Source: Limimaricola variabilis (GTDB lineage: Bacteria; Pseudomonadota; Alphaproteobacteria; Rhodobacterales; Rhodobacteraceae). From it: DNA of 64,000 nt. Positions 12,958 to 18,183 of this stretch are shown here, in pieces; within the stretch, counting starts at the first letter, position 1; each line of letters begins with the position of its first letter. Under the pieces are notes generated by a model. It was not told the DNA's origin. It was given only the letters and a program-made list of their open reading frames with translations, and searched no databases. The translations under genes and the position numbers were made by a program. The stretch lies in NCBI RefSeq assembly GCF_014195545.1, contig NZ_JACIBX010000005.1:124001-188000 (forward strand), read 5' to 3'.

Positions 12958-13467
12958 ATGAGCGTGCATTCCACCCTCGAGCCGACGCTGCGCGGTGCCC
13001 GCGACACGGCTTTCATGGCGAGCTATCTCGACAGCCTGACCTTGGTGGAACGGCTGCACCGGCTGCTGCTCGACGTCATCAAGGACGAGTTCGAGCGCGT
13101 CGGCGTGATCGAGATCAACGCGGTTCAGGCGCTCCTGCTGTTCAATGTGGGCGACAACGAGGTGACGGCCGGCGAACTGAAGTCGCGCGGCTACTACCAG
13201 GGCAGCAACGTCAGCTACAATCTCAAGAAATTGGTCGAGGCGGGCTACATGCACCACCAGCGCTGCCACGTCGATCGCCGCTCGGTCCGGGTGCGCCTGA
13301 CCGAAAAGGGCAGCCGCATCCGCGATATCGTCGACAAGCTGTTCGCGAGCCACGCGGCGGGCATGCTGTCACGCGGCGTGCTCGACCAGTCGGGCATCGA
13401 TGACATCACCATGTCGCTGCGGCGGATCGAGCGCTACTGGAGCGATCAGATCCGCTACATCTACTGA
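12958..13467 (+). CDS. MarR family winged helix regulator, LdtR-like
   Basis: 169-residue winged helix regulator. A helical N-terminus is followed by the recognition region (VTAGELKSRGYYQGSNVSYNLKKLV) and a wing with DRRSVRVRLTEKG, then a C-terminal dimerisation helix. The GYYQGSNVSYN segment resembles LdtR-type regulators of alphaproteobacteria, which control an L,D-transpeptidase and osmotic tolerance in Liberibacter; that target is inference here. ATG at 12958 has GGAGAAG upstream; an in-frame GTG at 12952 is less well placed. An inverted repeat lies directly upstream. It converges with gloA. Confidence 0.83.
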   Translation: MSVHSTLEPTLRGARDTAFMASYLDSLTLVERLHRLLLDVIKDEFERVGVIEINAVQALLLFNVGDNEVTAGELKSRGYYQGSNVSYNLKKLVEAGYMHHQRCHVDRRSVRVRLTEKGSRIRDIVDKLFASHAAGMLSRGVLDQSGIDDITMSLRRIERYWSDQIRYIY

Positions 13468-13486
13468 CCCCCACGGGGGCGGGGCC

Positions 13487-13915
13487 TCACCAGTGGCCGG
13501 TGTTTTCCATGCTGGCCCAAGGCTCCTTGGCGGGCAGAGCCTGGCCCGCTTGCAGCAGCTCGATCGAGATATTGTCGGGCGAGCGGACGAAGGCCATGTG
13601 CCCATCGCGCGGCGGCCGGTTGATGGTGACGCCGTTGGCCTGCAGATGCGCGCAGGTCGCGTAGATGTCGTCGACCTCGTAGGCGAGATGGCCGAAATGC
13701 CGGCTGTCCGAGGGCAGGCCCTCGTCGCCATCCCAGTTCCAGGTCAGCTCGACCGGGCAGTCCTCCTGCCCCGGGGGGGCCATGAAGACCAGCGTGAAGC
13801 GCCCGCCCTCGCTCTCCTTGCGGCGGGTTTCGCGCAGGCCGAGCAGTTCATAGAAGGCCATGCTCTTCTCGAGATCCTTCACCCGGACCATGGTGTGCAG
13901 GTATTTCAACGCCAT
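13487..13915 (-). CDS. gloA: Lactoylglutathione lyase (glyoxalase I)
   Basis: 142-residue glyoxalase I, which converts the methylglyoxal-glutathione hemithioacetal to S-lactoylglutathione. The four metal ligands are recognisable: His in YLHTMVRV, Glu in PVELTWNW, His in RHFGHLAYEV and Glu in NISIELLQ. Two beta-alpha-beta-beta-beta repeats of the VOC fold fill the protein and length matches the bacterial Ni-type enzyme. It lies alone, convergent with the MarR-type regulator and upstream of the Slam gene on the opposite side of a 68-bp gap. Confidence 0.93.
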   Translation of the reverse strand: MALKYLHTMVRVKDLEKSMAFYELLGLRETRRKESEGGRFTLVFMAPPGQEDCPVELTWNWDGDEGLPSDSRHFGHLAYEVDDIYATCAHLQANGVTINRPPRDGHMAFVRSPDNISIELLQAGQALPAKEPWASMENTGHW

Positions 13916-13983
13916 TCCGGCTCTCCGCTGTCTGGTTGCGCGGCTGAACCTAGCAGGCTGGGAGCCGGGGGCCAGTGCCCGGA

Positions 13984-15333
13984 TCAGAAGGAGGAGCGCA
14001 GGCCCAGCTCGAGCGTCAGTGCCTGCTCCTCGAAAAGCGGCACGCTCGACCAGCTGCGCCGGGCAGTAAGCCCAAGCTCGGGGTAGAAGCTCCAGCGCGC
14101 GGTCTGGGGCAGGCCGACGCGAAGCTCGGCCTGCAACTCCCGATCCTGACGGCCACCCATATCGTAGCGCGTGGCGGCATAGTCACGCCATTGCGCCTCG
14201 ATTCCCATGCCGATCCGTGCCGGTCCCACCGGGCGCGCCAGATCATGGTCGAGGTTCAGTGTCACGGCATCATGCGACAGATCCGGACGCTCCCCCGACA
14301 CGTGCCGCAGCCCGAGCAACATCCGGAGCCGGTCGCCCCCGGCCAGCTCCCTCGAAAAGCCGAGTTGCCCCACCGGCGCCCACCAGCCCGCGTCGAGGTC
14401 GTGGCGATAGCTGTATTCCCCCGCAAGGCTGACCTCCACGATGGCCCTTTGCGTCTGCGCAAGCGGCCGGGCGACGCCGAGGCGCAGGGTGTCGACCAGG
14501 GGATCGCCGCCATACCAGTGCCGCGCAACCTCGGCCGAGAGGTCGATCGGCGCCTCGGCGGCGATCCGTTGATTGGCCGCCGCTCTTACCGTAGCCCGCG
14601 CGTAATCCGCGCCCTTCGCCTCCGGTGCCTGTCGCCGTGCCGAGGCGCTCAGCCGGGGCAGGCGCGCCTCGGCGGCAAGGTCGATCCAGGCCGGGCCGGG
14701 CAGGGCGGGGTTCGCGATCGACCGACGGACGCCGAAGCGGGCGTCGAACACGGTGCCGGAGAGCGCCTTCGCGTCGCCGGTCAGTTCGAACACGAAGGGC
14801 AGGCCGGGCAGGCGCAGCTCCTCGGCGCGGCTGCCGCCATTGACGTTGGAGGAAGGCGCGACGCCGAAACCCAGCCGGAACGCCAGCGGGTTGCGCGCCG
14901 CAACGGCGCGGTAGTCGCGGGCAAGGCCCTCCAGGGCGGCCGCGTCCGGCGCGTCGGGGCTGGCGCGGCGCAGCCAGAACTGCGCCTGGGTGAAGCGGCC
15001 TTGGCGCATCCGCGCATGGGCGGCGAGCCGGGCCGCGCGGAACCGGGCCGGTCCCTCGACCAGCCGATGCGCCCGCCCGGCATAATCGGCGACCCCCGGC
15101 CAGTCGCCGGTCAGCGTCGCGGCCTCGGCCGCCAGCATCAATGCGGTCGGATCGTTCGGATCGCGCAGCAGCAAAGCGCGGCTCAGCTCGAGCGCGGCCG
15201 GTGCATTTTCGGCGGCCAGCGCGCCGGCCGCGAGGCGGCGCATCGCGTCGGGGCCGATCTCGACCGGCGCGGCCGCCGCGCCCATGGCCAGGCCAAGCGC
15301 AAGGGCAAGCCCGAAAGCCAGGCGTCGGATCAT
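13984..15333 (-). CDS. Slam-type outer-membrane translocator (surface lipoprotein assembly modifier, DUF560)
   Basis: 449-residue predicted outer-membrane protein. A signal peptide (residues 1-21, ending AAA) is followed by an N-terminal helical TPR-like region (about 30-150: alternating Ala/Leu/Arg helices) and a C-terminal beta barrel (about 160-449) of alternating strands ending in LRSSF, the terminal Phe typical of Bam substrates. TPR plus barrel is the Slam architecture; Slams move lipoproteins such as TbpB to the cell surface. Its ATG overlaps the stop of an upstream lipoprotein gene by 4 bp, matching the usual Slam-substrate pairing. Family assignment is by architecture, not alignment. 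Confidence 0.78.
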   Translation of the reverse strand: MIRRLAFGLALALGLAMGAAAAPVEIGPDAMRRLAAGALAAENAPAALELSRALLLRDPNDPTALMLAAEAATLTGDWPGVADYAGRAHRLVEGPARFRAARLAAHARMRQGRFTQAQFWLRRASPDAPDAAALEGLARDYRAVAARNPLAFRLGFGVAPSSNVNGGSRAEELRLPGLPFVFELTGDAKALSGTVFDARFGVRRSIANPALPGPAWIDLAAEARLPRLSASARRQAPEAKGADYARATVRAAANQRIAAEAPIDLSAEVARHWYGGDPLVDTLRLGVARPLAQTQRAIVEVSLAGEYSYRHDLDAGWWAPVGQLGFSRELAGGDRLRMLLGLRHVSGERPDLSHDAVTLNLDHDLARPVGPARIGMGIEAQWRDYAATRYDMGGRQDRELQAELRVGLPQTARWSFYPELGLTARRSWSSVPLFEEQALTLELGLRSSF

Positions 15334-16328
15334 CGGTAGACGATGAAGCCGCCGGTCTCGCGCACCTTGATCCGGCCCTCGTAGCGCGGATCGGTGCTGT
15401 CGATCACGACGATGCCGACGATCTCCTGCGCCTCGCCGCCGATGATCCCCATGAACGTGCCTTCCTCGAAGACCTCGGTCCCGCCATCCTCGAGTTCACG
15501 CGTGCTCGATGCCGTGCCGGAGATCTCGCCATTGCTCTGCACCACGCCGGGGCCGACGTCGAAGGTCAGCGGCGGCGCGACCAGCGCCTCGTCGTTGAGC
15601 GGGTCGTTCGGCCCGAGCACCGCAAGCTCGCGGCCGCCGGAACTAAAGATCCGGCGGTTGTAGACCACCCCGCGCAGCCCGTCATCCTCGGTGAAATCCT
15701 CGAAATCCACGGCGATCTCCACGTCGCCGGAGCTGTATTCCAGCCCGGTCCCGCCGTCGAAGACCCGGATCCCGGCATAGTCGCCGCTGAACACGGCCTG
15801 GCCGTCCTTGGGGATCTCGACGCCGCCGTTGCGCTCGTAGAGGAACCCGCCGAAGCCGTAGCTGCGATAATCGCCGGTGCGGATGATGGCAAAGCGCGAG
15901 CGCGGCTGCAGTTGACCGTCGACACGGGTGGTGTCGCGGCTCTCGCCATAGATGGCGCGGTAGTCGAACTGCCGGATCCGGGCCCCGGTCTCGGGGTCGA
16001 GCACCACCGAATCGTCGCCGAAGCTGCCGACGCTGTCATAGAGCGCAAAGCCGTTCAGGCTGTCGAAGCGCGCTTGCCGCTCATAGGGGCGGTCCCCATC
16101 GAAGGGGATGTTGTCGACGCTGAAGCTGTCGCTGGCGGCGTCGTATTGCACGGCCGTGACAAAGCCGCCCTCATCCGCGTCGCGCTCCTCGCTGCGCCGG
16201 ATCGAGTCGCCCGGGCCTTCCCCGCTGTCCTCTTCCGTCGTCTCCTCCTCTTCGGGGAACACGAAGGGCTGGCCGTCGCCACAGGCGGCCAGAAGGAGCA
16301 GGGCTGCGGCGGAAAGGGGTAGGAACAT
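15330..16328 (-). CDS. Surface lipoprotein, TbpB/factor H-binding-protein-like, putative Slam substrate
   Basis: 332-residue lipoprotein. The signal peptide ends in the lipobox LLAAC, so Cys16 would be lipidated. An acidic, Glu/Thr-rich linker (about residues 24-55) tethers a beta-rich body. Near the C-terminus, [16 protein letters not shown] matches the G-x-F-x-G...A-x-E-x-x-G pattern of the C-terminal barrel of transferrin-binding protein B-like lipoproteins. The gene overlaps the Slam gene by 4 bp (ATGA). The ATG at 16328 was chosen because it starts the signal peptide; the much longer open frame upstream crosses thyX. Ligand unknown; iron or haem capture is only one possibility. Confidence 0.78.
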
Positions 16329-16472
16329 CGGGGGCCTCGGCCTCGGGGGATGACGCGACCATTCCCGGGCGGGGTGGCGGGTGTCAACGCGGGGTGGAAC
16401 GGCACCGGGCGATTGTTCCAATCCGGCCACGCGGCTATGCAGGCCCCAGACCCGGATCAAGGAGACCAACCC

Positions 16473-17381
16473 ATGCCGCTGACGCCCGAGCAGGAAGCCG
16501 AGATCGAGGATCTTCGCGCCACCCCCCGACAGACGCTGCGCGCCGTCTCCGAAGGCGCCGAGAAGCATCTCTACAAGGCCCACCCGGTGCTCGACCACGG
16601 CTTCGTGCGGATGATCGACTACATGGGCGACGACGCGGCGATCTGCCAGGCCGCTAGGGTGAGCTACGGGCGCGGCACCAAGTCGGTGCAGAACGACGAG
16701 GGGCTGATCCGCTACCTGATGCGGCACTGGCACTCGACGCCGTTCGAGATGTGCGAGCTGAAGCTGCACGTGAAGCTGCCGGTCTTCGTCGCGCGCCAGT
16801 GGATCCGCCACCGCACCGCCAACGTCAACGAATACTCCGCCCGCTACTCGATCCTCGACCGGGAGTTCTACATACCCCGCGCCGAAGACCTCGCCGCGCA
16901 GTCGGCGCAGAACAACCAGGGCCGGGGCGACGTACTGGGACCGGAGGAATCGGCCCGCGTGCTCGACTGGCTGCGCGAGGACGCGCACCGCGCCTATGAC
17001 CATTACGAGCAGATGATCTCGGATGACGGCCAGCAGGGCCTCGCCCGCGAACTGGCGCGGATGAACCTGCCCGCCAACATCTACACGCAGTGGTACTGGA
17101 AGGTGGACCTGCACAACCTGTTCCACTTCCTGCGGCTACGCGCCGACAGCCACGCGCAATACGAGATCCGGGTCTATGCGGACGCGATCTGCGAGATGGT
17201 CAGGGACTGGGTGCCTGCCGCCTACCGCGCCTTCGAGGAGTATCGCCTCGGGGGGGTGACGCTTTCAGCCTCGGGTGTAGAGTGCCTGCGTCGAATGCTC
17301 GCTGGGGAGGAAGTGACCCAAGCGACGTCGGGGATGAGTGCGCGCGAGTGGCGGGAGTTCTCGGACATTGTCCGAAAATAG
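16473..17381 (+). CDS. thyX: FAD-dependent thymidylate synthase
   Basis: 302-residue ThyX, which makes dTMP from dUMP using methylenetetrahydrofolate, NADPH and FAD. The ThyX signature RHRx7S is present as [11 protein letters not shown] at residues 112-122. Length and the [18 protein letters not shown] segment fit the alphaproteobacterial form. AAGGAGA precedes the ATG; the upstream extension of the frame is not supported. It is divergent from the surface lipoprotein gene, leaving about 145 bp for both promoters. It links to the folate genes elsewhere in the window functionally, not by position. Confidence 0.95.
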
Positions 17382-17451: not shown

Positions 17452-18183
17452 GTGTCTAAGGTTGTCGTTGCTTGCGTTAAATGGGGCAACAAGTACCCTT
17501 CGTCCTATGTAACAAGGTTGCGGAATATGGTCAGGCGGAACCTAAACGTTCCGCATGAATTTTTTTGCCTGACCGATGATGGAACGAATTTGCCCGATGA
17601 CGTCCACGTCGTGCCGCTTACGGAAAACTGGACCGGCTGGTGGAACAAAATTTGTTTGTTCAATCCTGATTTGTTCCCTGAGGGCGCGCGGATACTATAC
17701 TTGGACCTTGATGTCGTCATTACAGGGAGCATCGATTTTCTACTCGATGAGGAGCTGTCGTTTTCCGCCTGTAGGCCTTTTTCTGGAAAGCAGAATGTTC
17801 GCTGCAACAGCTCGATCCTGTGCTTTCCCTCCGGGCCCTATAGATATCTGTATGATGGATTGAAAGTCGACGGAAGCATCGTCGAAAGATATCCCGGGGA
17901 TCAGGATTATATCTCGGATCTTGTTAAAGAGATTGACTGGTTTCAGAGTGATAAGGTGGTTTCTTACAAATTCGATCTGGGGTCTACATTCTGGGGCACA
18001 GCGCTTCCTGAGAAGATAAGGCGCGGATTGCCGCGCATTGCGCCCCTGCCAGCTATGGAAACCGTTCTTCCGAAAGAGGTGTCCGTGGTGGTCTTTCACG
18101 GAAAGCCGGACCCTGAGGATGTGGCGAAAAAGAGCTACAAAGGTTATCGCAAAGCACCTTTCGTCAGCCAGCATTGGCAATAG
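17452..18183 (+). CDS. Glycosyltransferase-like protein (GT8-like DXD), AT-richer than surroundings
   Basis: 243-residue cytoplasmic protein starting at a GTG. Residues 82-90 read LYLDLDVVI, a DXD-type metal/nucleotide-sugar site typical of GT-A glycosyltransferases, followed by a region with NSSILCFPSG and a late FHGKPDPED, the arrangement of GT8-like transferases. No membrane segment is visible. Codon use is strikingly different: many A/T third positions, Leu TTG/CTA and Ile ATA, against strong GC3 in all neighbours. That suggests recent acquisition, although no transposase or flanking repeat is present. Acceptor and sugar are unknown. Confidence 0.72.
   Translation: MSKVVVACVKWGNKYPSSYVTRLRNMVRRNLNVPHEFFCLTDDGTNLPDDVHVVPLTENWTGWWNKICLFNPDLFPEGARILYLDLDVVITGSIDFLLDEELSFSACRPFSGKQNVRCNSSILCFPSGPYRYLYDGLKVDGSIVERYPGDQDYISDLVKEIDWFQSDKVVSYKFDLGSTFWGTALPEKIRRGLPRIAPLPAMETVLPKEVSVVVFHGKPDPEDVAKKSYKGYRKAPFVSQHWQ

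Follow-up and report, generated by a model that had tools for sequence, protein, structure and literature searches.

The locus described here raises two questions: whether Limimaricola variabilis, a member of the Rhodobacteraceae, encodes a Slam-type outer-membrane translocon together with the lipoprotein that it displays, and what such a pair would do in a genome where no TonB-dependent receptor is detectable. Slam1 has been found to act as a translocon that takes unfolded TbpB, with Skp assisting (PMC9090332), and Slam is described as a 14-strand barrel combined with a TPR domain, PgaA homologues having 16 strands rather than 14 (PMC8406197). A sequence-only reading of the window, by which is meant the whole analysed stretch of 64,000 nucleotides, had proposed a Slam-type partner of a TbpB-like lipoprotein, and the predicted folds and the SlipAM matches of the homologues largely bear this out. 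It is highly likely that the two genes form a Slam pair (type 11 secretion, T11SS) dedicated to a single cargo and that the lipoprotein is displayed on the cell surface.

The Gene Pair and its Neighborhood

The features of the locus are collected in Table 1. Long plus-strand ORFs overlap both genes of the pair, while homology favors the minus-strand reading. The overlap of 4 bp between stop and start that had been pointed out earlier is present, and the lipoprotein and the outer-membrane protein (OMP) may be translationally coupled through it. A search of positions 13300-16600 of the window for promoters and terminators gave no match.

Table 1. Features of the locus, with positions in the window.
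Feature	Position	Strand	Basis or remark
Putative cargo surface lipoprotein, 332 aa	15330..16328	-	ORF, alignment, predicted model, Foldseek
Putative Slam/T11SS-type outer-membrane translocon (OMP), 449 aa	13984..15333	-	ORF, SlipAM matches of homologues, predicted model
ATGA overlap, lipoprotein stop/translocon start	15330..15333	-	ORF reading
Glyoxalase/VOC protein GloA	13487..13915	-	Directly downstream of the OMP, same strand; ORF and homologues
Flavin-dependent thymidylate synthase ThyX	16473..17381	+	Divergent from the pair; ORF and homologues

A GloA homologue is found downstream of the OMP at 34 of the 39 named loci, and GloA is probably a conserved flank rather than a part of the mechanism. 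ThyX, with a divergent upstream homologue at 27/39 of these loci, is a conserved flank that marks the locus. Further flanks recognized by eye in the window are AspC, CptB, an Xre-like regulator, a cold-shock protein, topoisomerase IV B and ThrRS; the names of the flank genes were given by eye or taken from PMC12282271, and were read from ORFs alone. An ORF lying between ThyX and the cold-shock gene (17452..18183, plus strand) looks by eye like a small glycosyltransferase.

The assembly that holds the window comprises 3.65 Mb in 37 contigs and is 99.55% complete. Profile searches of this genome gave one match to the OMP (all 25 candidates scored) and one to the lipoprotein (11 of 17 candidates scored), that is, one detectable copy of each.

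The Outer-Membrane Protein

The OMP has a hydrophobic, signal-like start and ends in ...LGLRSSF, the terminal Phe being invariant in 21/21 aligned OMPs. Its predicted model (pLDDT 91.8, pTM 0.79) displays seven helices at residues 28-147 followed by 14 long strands at residues 150-447, and is thus predicted to hold a TPR-like domain and then a 14-strand barrel, the barrel being judged by strand count in the model and not by closure. Of the features that had been ascribed to this protein, the signal peptide appears as a signal-like start, the barrel is predicted and the final Phe is present; the TPR part is present as helices in the model, but by sequence the TPR matches of the window OMP alone are weak (best E 0.0046, below the curated cut-off in Pfam). 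Since the direct Pfam and NCBIfam scans otherwise gave only weak matches of PgaA/PrsT type (the PgaA model at E 0.033), the homologues and the structure were used for assignment.

The Pfam family SlipAM (PF04575, DUF560), to which the protein had been expected to belong, is reached through the homologues. The model matches 15 of the 21 aligned full-length OMPs (window protein included in the alignment) at E up to 1, with a best E of 1.9e-10, but gives no match to the window OMP at E up to 10 and none elsewhere in the genome; 0/14 control genomes matched. At the strong OMP places defined below it is found in 48/103 at E 1e-3 and in 40/103 over the curated cut-off. Another 31 SlipAM places, in 28 genomes of the family, lie outside the strong set. 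Some of these reach up to 117 bits, clearly more than the locus family, and seem to form a second SlipAM lineage, while others, such as G232:C1016 and G095:C36, are fragments or low-scoring members of the locus family. One of the 31 (L024, at G008:C12) also has a lipoprotein directly upstream.

When the OMP model was compared with the PDB using Foldseek, BcsC and PelB came first, followed by OmpG and other porins, and no Slam was named among the best 50 structure matches. BcsC and PelB are TPR-barrel exopolysaccharide exporters, and OmpG has 14 strands. In a profile search of PDB sequences, which was less informative than the structure comparison, the helical part retrieved TPR proteins and designed repeat proteins.

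The nearest named relatives of the window OMP are from Limimaricola, and a homologue at E 1e-3 was found in 24 of 61 genomes searched, its own included. The Pseudoroseicyclus OMP (L016/L048) carries an acidic, proline-rich insertion of ~35 residues between predicted barrel strands 3 and 4. A diversification driven by the loops was considered but is not borne out by region averages, in which the outer loops do not stand out as most variable within the OMP.

The Lipoprotein

The lipoprotein has a lipobox LAAC at residues 13-16 with the presumed lipidation site at Cys16, an acidic tether at ~17-42, a handle at ~43-176 and eight strands at ~177-331, with ETGGF near its C-terminal end. The lipobox, the tether and the late motif block reported from the letters alone are accordingly all found in ORF 16328..15330 on the minus strand. 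The type II signal peptide and the lipobox were called by eye and pattern; the column of Cys16 is at least 90% conserved in the lipoprotein alignment (A2). The n-region MFLP is without the Arg found in relatives of the same genus.

In the predicted model (pLDDT 80.8, pTM 0.80, residues 1-36 under 50) an N-terminal handle precedes eight strands in the C-terminal part, of which one spans just 4 residues; here too the barrel is a matter of strand count and not of closure. The 15 best Foldseek matches in the PDB are all TbpB, hemophilin/HphA, fHbp or NHBA, which agrees with the TbpB-like barrel that had been anticipated. TbpB and HphA are described as Slam cargo, and fHbp and NHBA are counted as such too. 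The best E values are 2.4e-6 for TbpB, 5.3e-6 to 1e-4 for hemophilin/HphA, 3.3e-4 and 6.9e-4 for fHbp and 4e-3 for the C-terminal domain of NHBA. Fourteen matches are better than E 1e-3; among the matches listed, those ranked 16 or lower are other proteins, with lower probability. The fits are loose, with query TM-scores of 0.23-0.38, target TM-scores up to 0.60 and an rmsd of at least 6.8 A among the 15 best.

By sequence this kinship appears in some homologues but not in the window protein: at E up to 1, TbpB_B_D is found in 2/20 lipoprotein homologues (best 6.2e-7) and FHBP_C in 4/20 (best 0.0047), and neither matches the window lipoprotein. Pfam and NCBIfam scans of the latter assigned no family, and a profile search of PDB sequences gave nothing significant (best E 0.18). 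The window lipoprotein contains no His, against 0-7 in the other 19 sequences of A2.

The Rubellimicrobium mesophilum cargo (L035:6295-7920) is ~520 aa long with 29% Asp+Glu in the mature part, which suggests a much longer acidic tether. In L. cinnabarinus XM1 (L005/L030) the frame of the cargo gene is broken in a single assembly, either through assembly error or through decay.

Pairing Across the Family

For a survey of the pair, 199 genomes of the host's family, each at least 95% complete, were searched with profiles of both proteins. The OMP profile (A1) was built from 26 places, leaving out L006 (cut by a contig end), L023, L024 and L026 (weak) and L025 (second piece of L016); the lipoprotein profile (A2) left out the same places and in addition L005 (broken frame). 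The OMP was matched in 132 genomes and the lipoprotein in 99.

When a strong OMP place is defined as one of at least 230 bits, there are 103 such places in 100 genomes, and in 95 of them a lipoprotein match lies directly upstream on the same strand. The adjacency is thus near-obligate in this sample and exceeds chance. As the rows of A1 had been picked with the upstream lipoprotein known, their pairing is not counted as evidence; without the 14 sample genomes that supply profile rows, 81/89 places are paired. The gap between paired matches has a median of 46 bases and ranges from -1 to 424.

The upstream DNA of the eight unpaired places was inspected by eye for ORFs of at least 90 aa. Two are at contig ends (G181, G140:C58), two are extra copies in genomes where the other copy is paired (G166:C9:114936, G140:C65), and four seem to be alone, with no such gene upstream (G089, G150, G209, G218). 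Conversely, eight lipoprotein matches are not beside a strong OMP.

The 39 named loci, several of which belong to the same genomes as the profile rows, give a similar picture. The profile finds the lipoprotein in 31 of them, counting L030, where the frame is in two pieces, and L038, which is cut by a contig end. Where it finds none, contig ends cut off L031 and L047, the usual flanks are not seen at L042 and L059, and L050 has the flanks but no lipoprotein. L051 and L064 have a different lipoprotein directly upstream, missed by the A2 profile; these other lipoproteins in the cargo position (L051:7241-7927 and L064:6615-7763, stop to stop) are of 196 and 343 aa, respectively, by a script-chosen start. 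In L065, from a Boseongicola MAG, it is the OMP frame (L065:4463-5949) that is broken in a single assembly, by assembly error or decay.

Co-Divergence and Rate of Change

The OMP and the lipoprotein co-diverge beyond their flanks. In a mirror-tree comparison of 23 of the 39 loci, the distances of the two proteins correlate with r 0.65, and the partial correlation, also 0.65, was reached by 0/2000 permutations. For the same loci r is -0.01 between OMP and ThyX, 0.21 between OMP and GloA (partial 0.22, reached by 62/2000), 0.09 between lipoprotein and ThyX and 0.13 between lipoprotein and GloA. Left out of this single-flank analysis were L030, L065, L038 and L055, as well as loci without a lipoprotein, ThyX or GloA match. 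The analysis was repeated with five concatenated flank genes as background, additionally omitting L037, L035 and loci missing a flank gene. For the resulting 14 loci r between OMP and lipoprotein is again 0.65 and the partial correlation 0.59, reached by 1/2000 permutations, while the flanks correlate with the OMP at 0.40 and with the lipoprotein at 0.37.

Both proteins have also changed more than their neighbors. Five of the seven Limimaricola loci could be compared with the window, omitting L030 (broken) and L031 (cut), and identity to these relatives is 44-62% for the OMP and 48-69% for the lipoprotein against 80-99% for six flanking proteins (ThyX, GloA, LdtR-like, CptB, AspC, ThrRS); as the comparison is with flanking proteins only, rapid divergence may be common to outer-membrane proteins at large.

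Proposed Mechanism and Alternatives

By analogy with Neisseria and its relatives, from which the translocation step, its direction and the roles of the domains are taken, the OMP very probably places the lipoprotein on the cell surface. The lipoprotein would carry a type II signal peptide, leave the cytoplasm through Sec and receive its lipid at Cys16, after which it would cross the periplasm. LolA is found in the genome, and LolB is not, although the E. coli control matches; LolB is known only from some proteobacterial classes. The lipoprotein would then be threaded in an unfolded state through the 14-stranded barrel of the OMP, which would be translated together with it and whose periplasmic TPR domain may help to receive it. 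The eight-stranded C-terminal barrel is likely to be the domain for targeting and refolding of the cargo, which would remain lipid-anchored on the outer face.

Since TPR-barrel proteins are also used for polysaccharide export, the OMP might instead be a porin of the BcsC/PelB/PgaA kind with the lipoprotein as an accessory factor, as its first PDB matches and the weak PgaA match would fit. This is extremely unlikely, given that its model has 14 long strands and not the 16 reported for PgaA homologues (PMC8406197), that no synthase was recognized by eye among the flanking ORFs in positions 1-22000 of the window, and that the partner has the fold of a Slam cargo while OMP homologues match SlipAM. 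A lipoprotein that stays in the periplasm beside an unrelated porin, the two being adjacent merely because the neighborhood is conserved, is very unlikely as well. Homologues of ThyX and GloA are indeed conserved neighbors too, but the pair co-diverges beyond these flanks, its genes lie close together, and the two proteins are predicted to fold as a translocon and a cargo do.

The alternative that touches function accepts the translocation step and holds that the pair serves nutrition in the manner of TbpB or hemophilin, the lipoprotein taking haem, iron or another metal to a receptor elsewhere in the genome. TbpB and hemophilin are its closest solved folds, and a TonB receptor (PF00593) is found in 52 of the 95 genomes that carry the pair. 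This role is nevertheless improbable here. The absence of an adjacent TonB receptor, noted at the outset, turns out to extend further than was claimed, as neither PF00593 nor PF07715 detects one anywhere in the genome, while the E. coli, Caulobacter and Bacteroides controls match. PF00593 likewise has no match in 43/95 pair-bearing genomes and matches in 63 of the 104 others, so that no association between pair and receptor is seen in the 199-genome sample (Fisher p 0.47). In HphA, haem is bound by two His and passed on to a TonB receptor (PMC8560813); neither is found here, the window cargo having no His at all, and a hemophilin-like fold is therefore unlikely to mean a hemophilin-like job. 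Taken together, the lack of a detectable receptor and the lack of His make it most likely that the cargo has a task different from receptor-coupled uptake of iron or haem.

For the dedicated Slam pair preferred here, the best guess, held tentatively, is that the cargo is a variable surface-binding or shielding protein. Somewhat more speculative is the wider idea that a Slam system has here left nutrient uptake to become a single-cargo, TonB-independent display unit, inherited and replaced as a cassette in a static neighborhood, with a cargo that diversifies quickly and a slot that can be refilled by other lipoproteins, as at L051 and L064. If so, the quick diversification of the cargo is what would be expected of a surface layer facing phages, grazers and neighbors. 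The pair-bearing genomes without a detectable TonB receptor provide a clean setting for studying a role of Slam cargo outside iron piracy, and raise the question of why marine bacteria keep a paired, fast-diverging Slam system.

Comparison with Known Systems

The window pair shares with the Neisseria pairs Slam1/TbpB and Slam2/HpuA a TPR domain followed by a predicted 14-strand barrel, adjacent genes, and a cargo with a handle and an eight-strand barrel. It differs from them in that the genome has no detectable TonB-dependent receptor and that the sequence-level match to the family is through homologues only, and the cargo is a single handle-barrel unit, whereas TbpB has two lobes. The single handle and barrel are shared with HsmA/HphA of Acinetobacter (Foldseek E 5.3e-6 to A. 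baumannii hemophilin). The window cargo, however, bears a lipobox and is devoid of His, and no receptor for it is detectable, while HphA is described as a secreted haemophore that binds haem through two His and has a TonB receptor (PMC8560813). In an earlier survey 353 Slam-related genes were examined, 185 of which (~52%) were apparently those with a lipoprotein neighbor (PMC5449769).

The closest relative is the marine "cluster 3" T11SS locus described from 11 strains of Rhodobacteraceae/Roseobacteriaceae (Grossman et al., 2025; PMC12282271, Fig. 8), and the window locus is of this already published kind, now extended to Limimaricola. A literature search for prior work did not find the word Limimaricola among the papers listed. 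In the published locus the cargo lipoprotein is present in 10/11 strains and has 282-375 aa, an SPII signal and an eight-strand barrel. Both loci contain ThyX, the cargo lipoprotein, the T11SS OMP and lactoylglutathione lyase (GloA), and the window flanks named by eye fit the published co-occurrence list. The window OMP differs in scoring below the Pfam model of the family. DUF1194, reported near 102/145 cluster 3 OMPs (PMC12282271), is not beside the window pair, the genome having one such gene on another contig. A single-query search placed DUF1194 at most 3 kb downstream at 21/39 named loci and at 1/7 Limimaricola loci, and it was rejected as an obligate third part.

For the 145 OMPs of cluster 3 the same source counts 31 putative cargoes, or 0.21 per OMP, with TbpBBD at 8/145, and offers as reasons for this dearth that cargoes are encoded elsewhere, fall below the similarity threshold or have been lost (PMC12282271). 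Pairing is by contrast near-universal in the present sample, although this was defined by a locus-centered profile and the ratios are not strictly comparable. The sample favors the second of the three reasons. As the SlipAM cut-off is passed at only 40/103 places and TbpB_B_D is found in 2/20 lipoproteins, yet 95/103 places are paired, the low number of barrel cargoes reported next to marine T11SS proteins appears to be due in part to limited detection.
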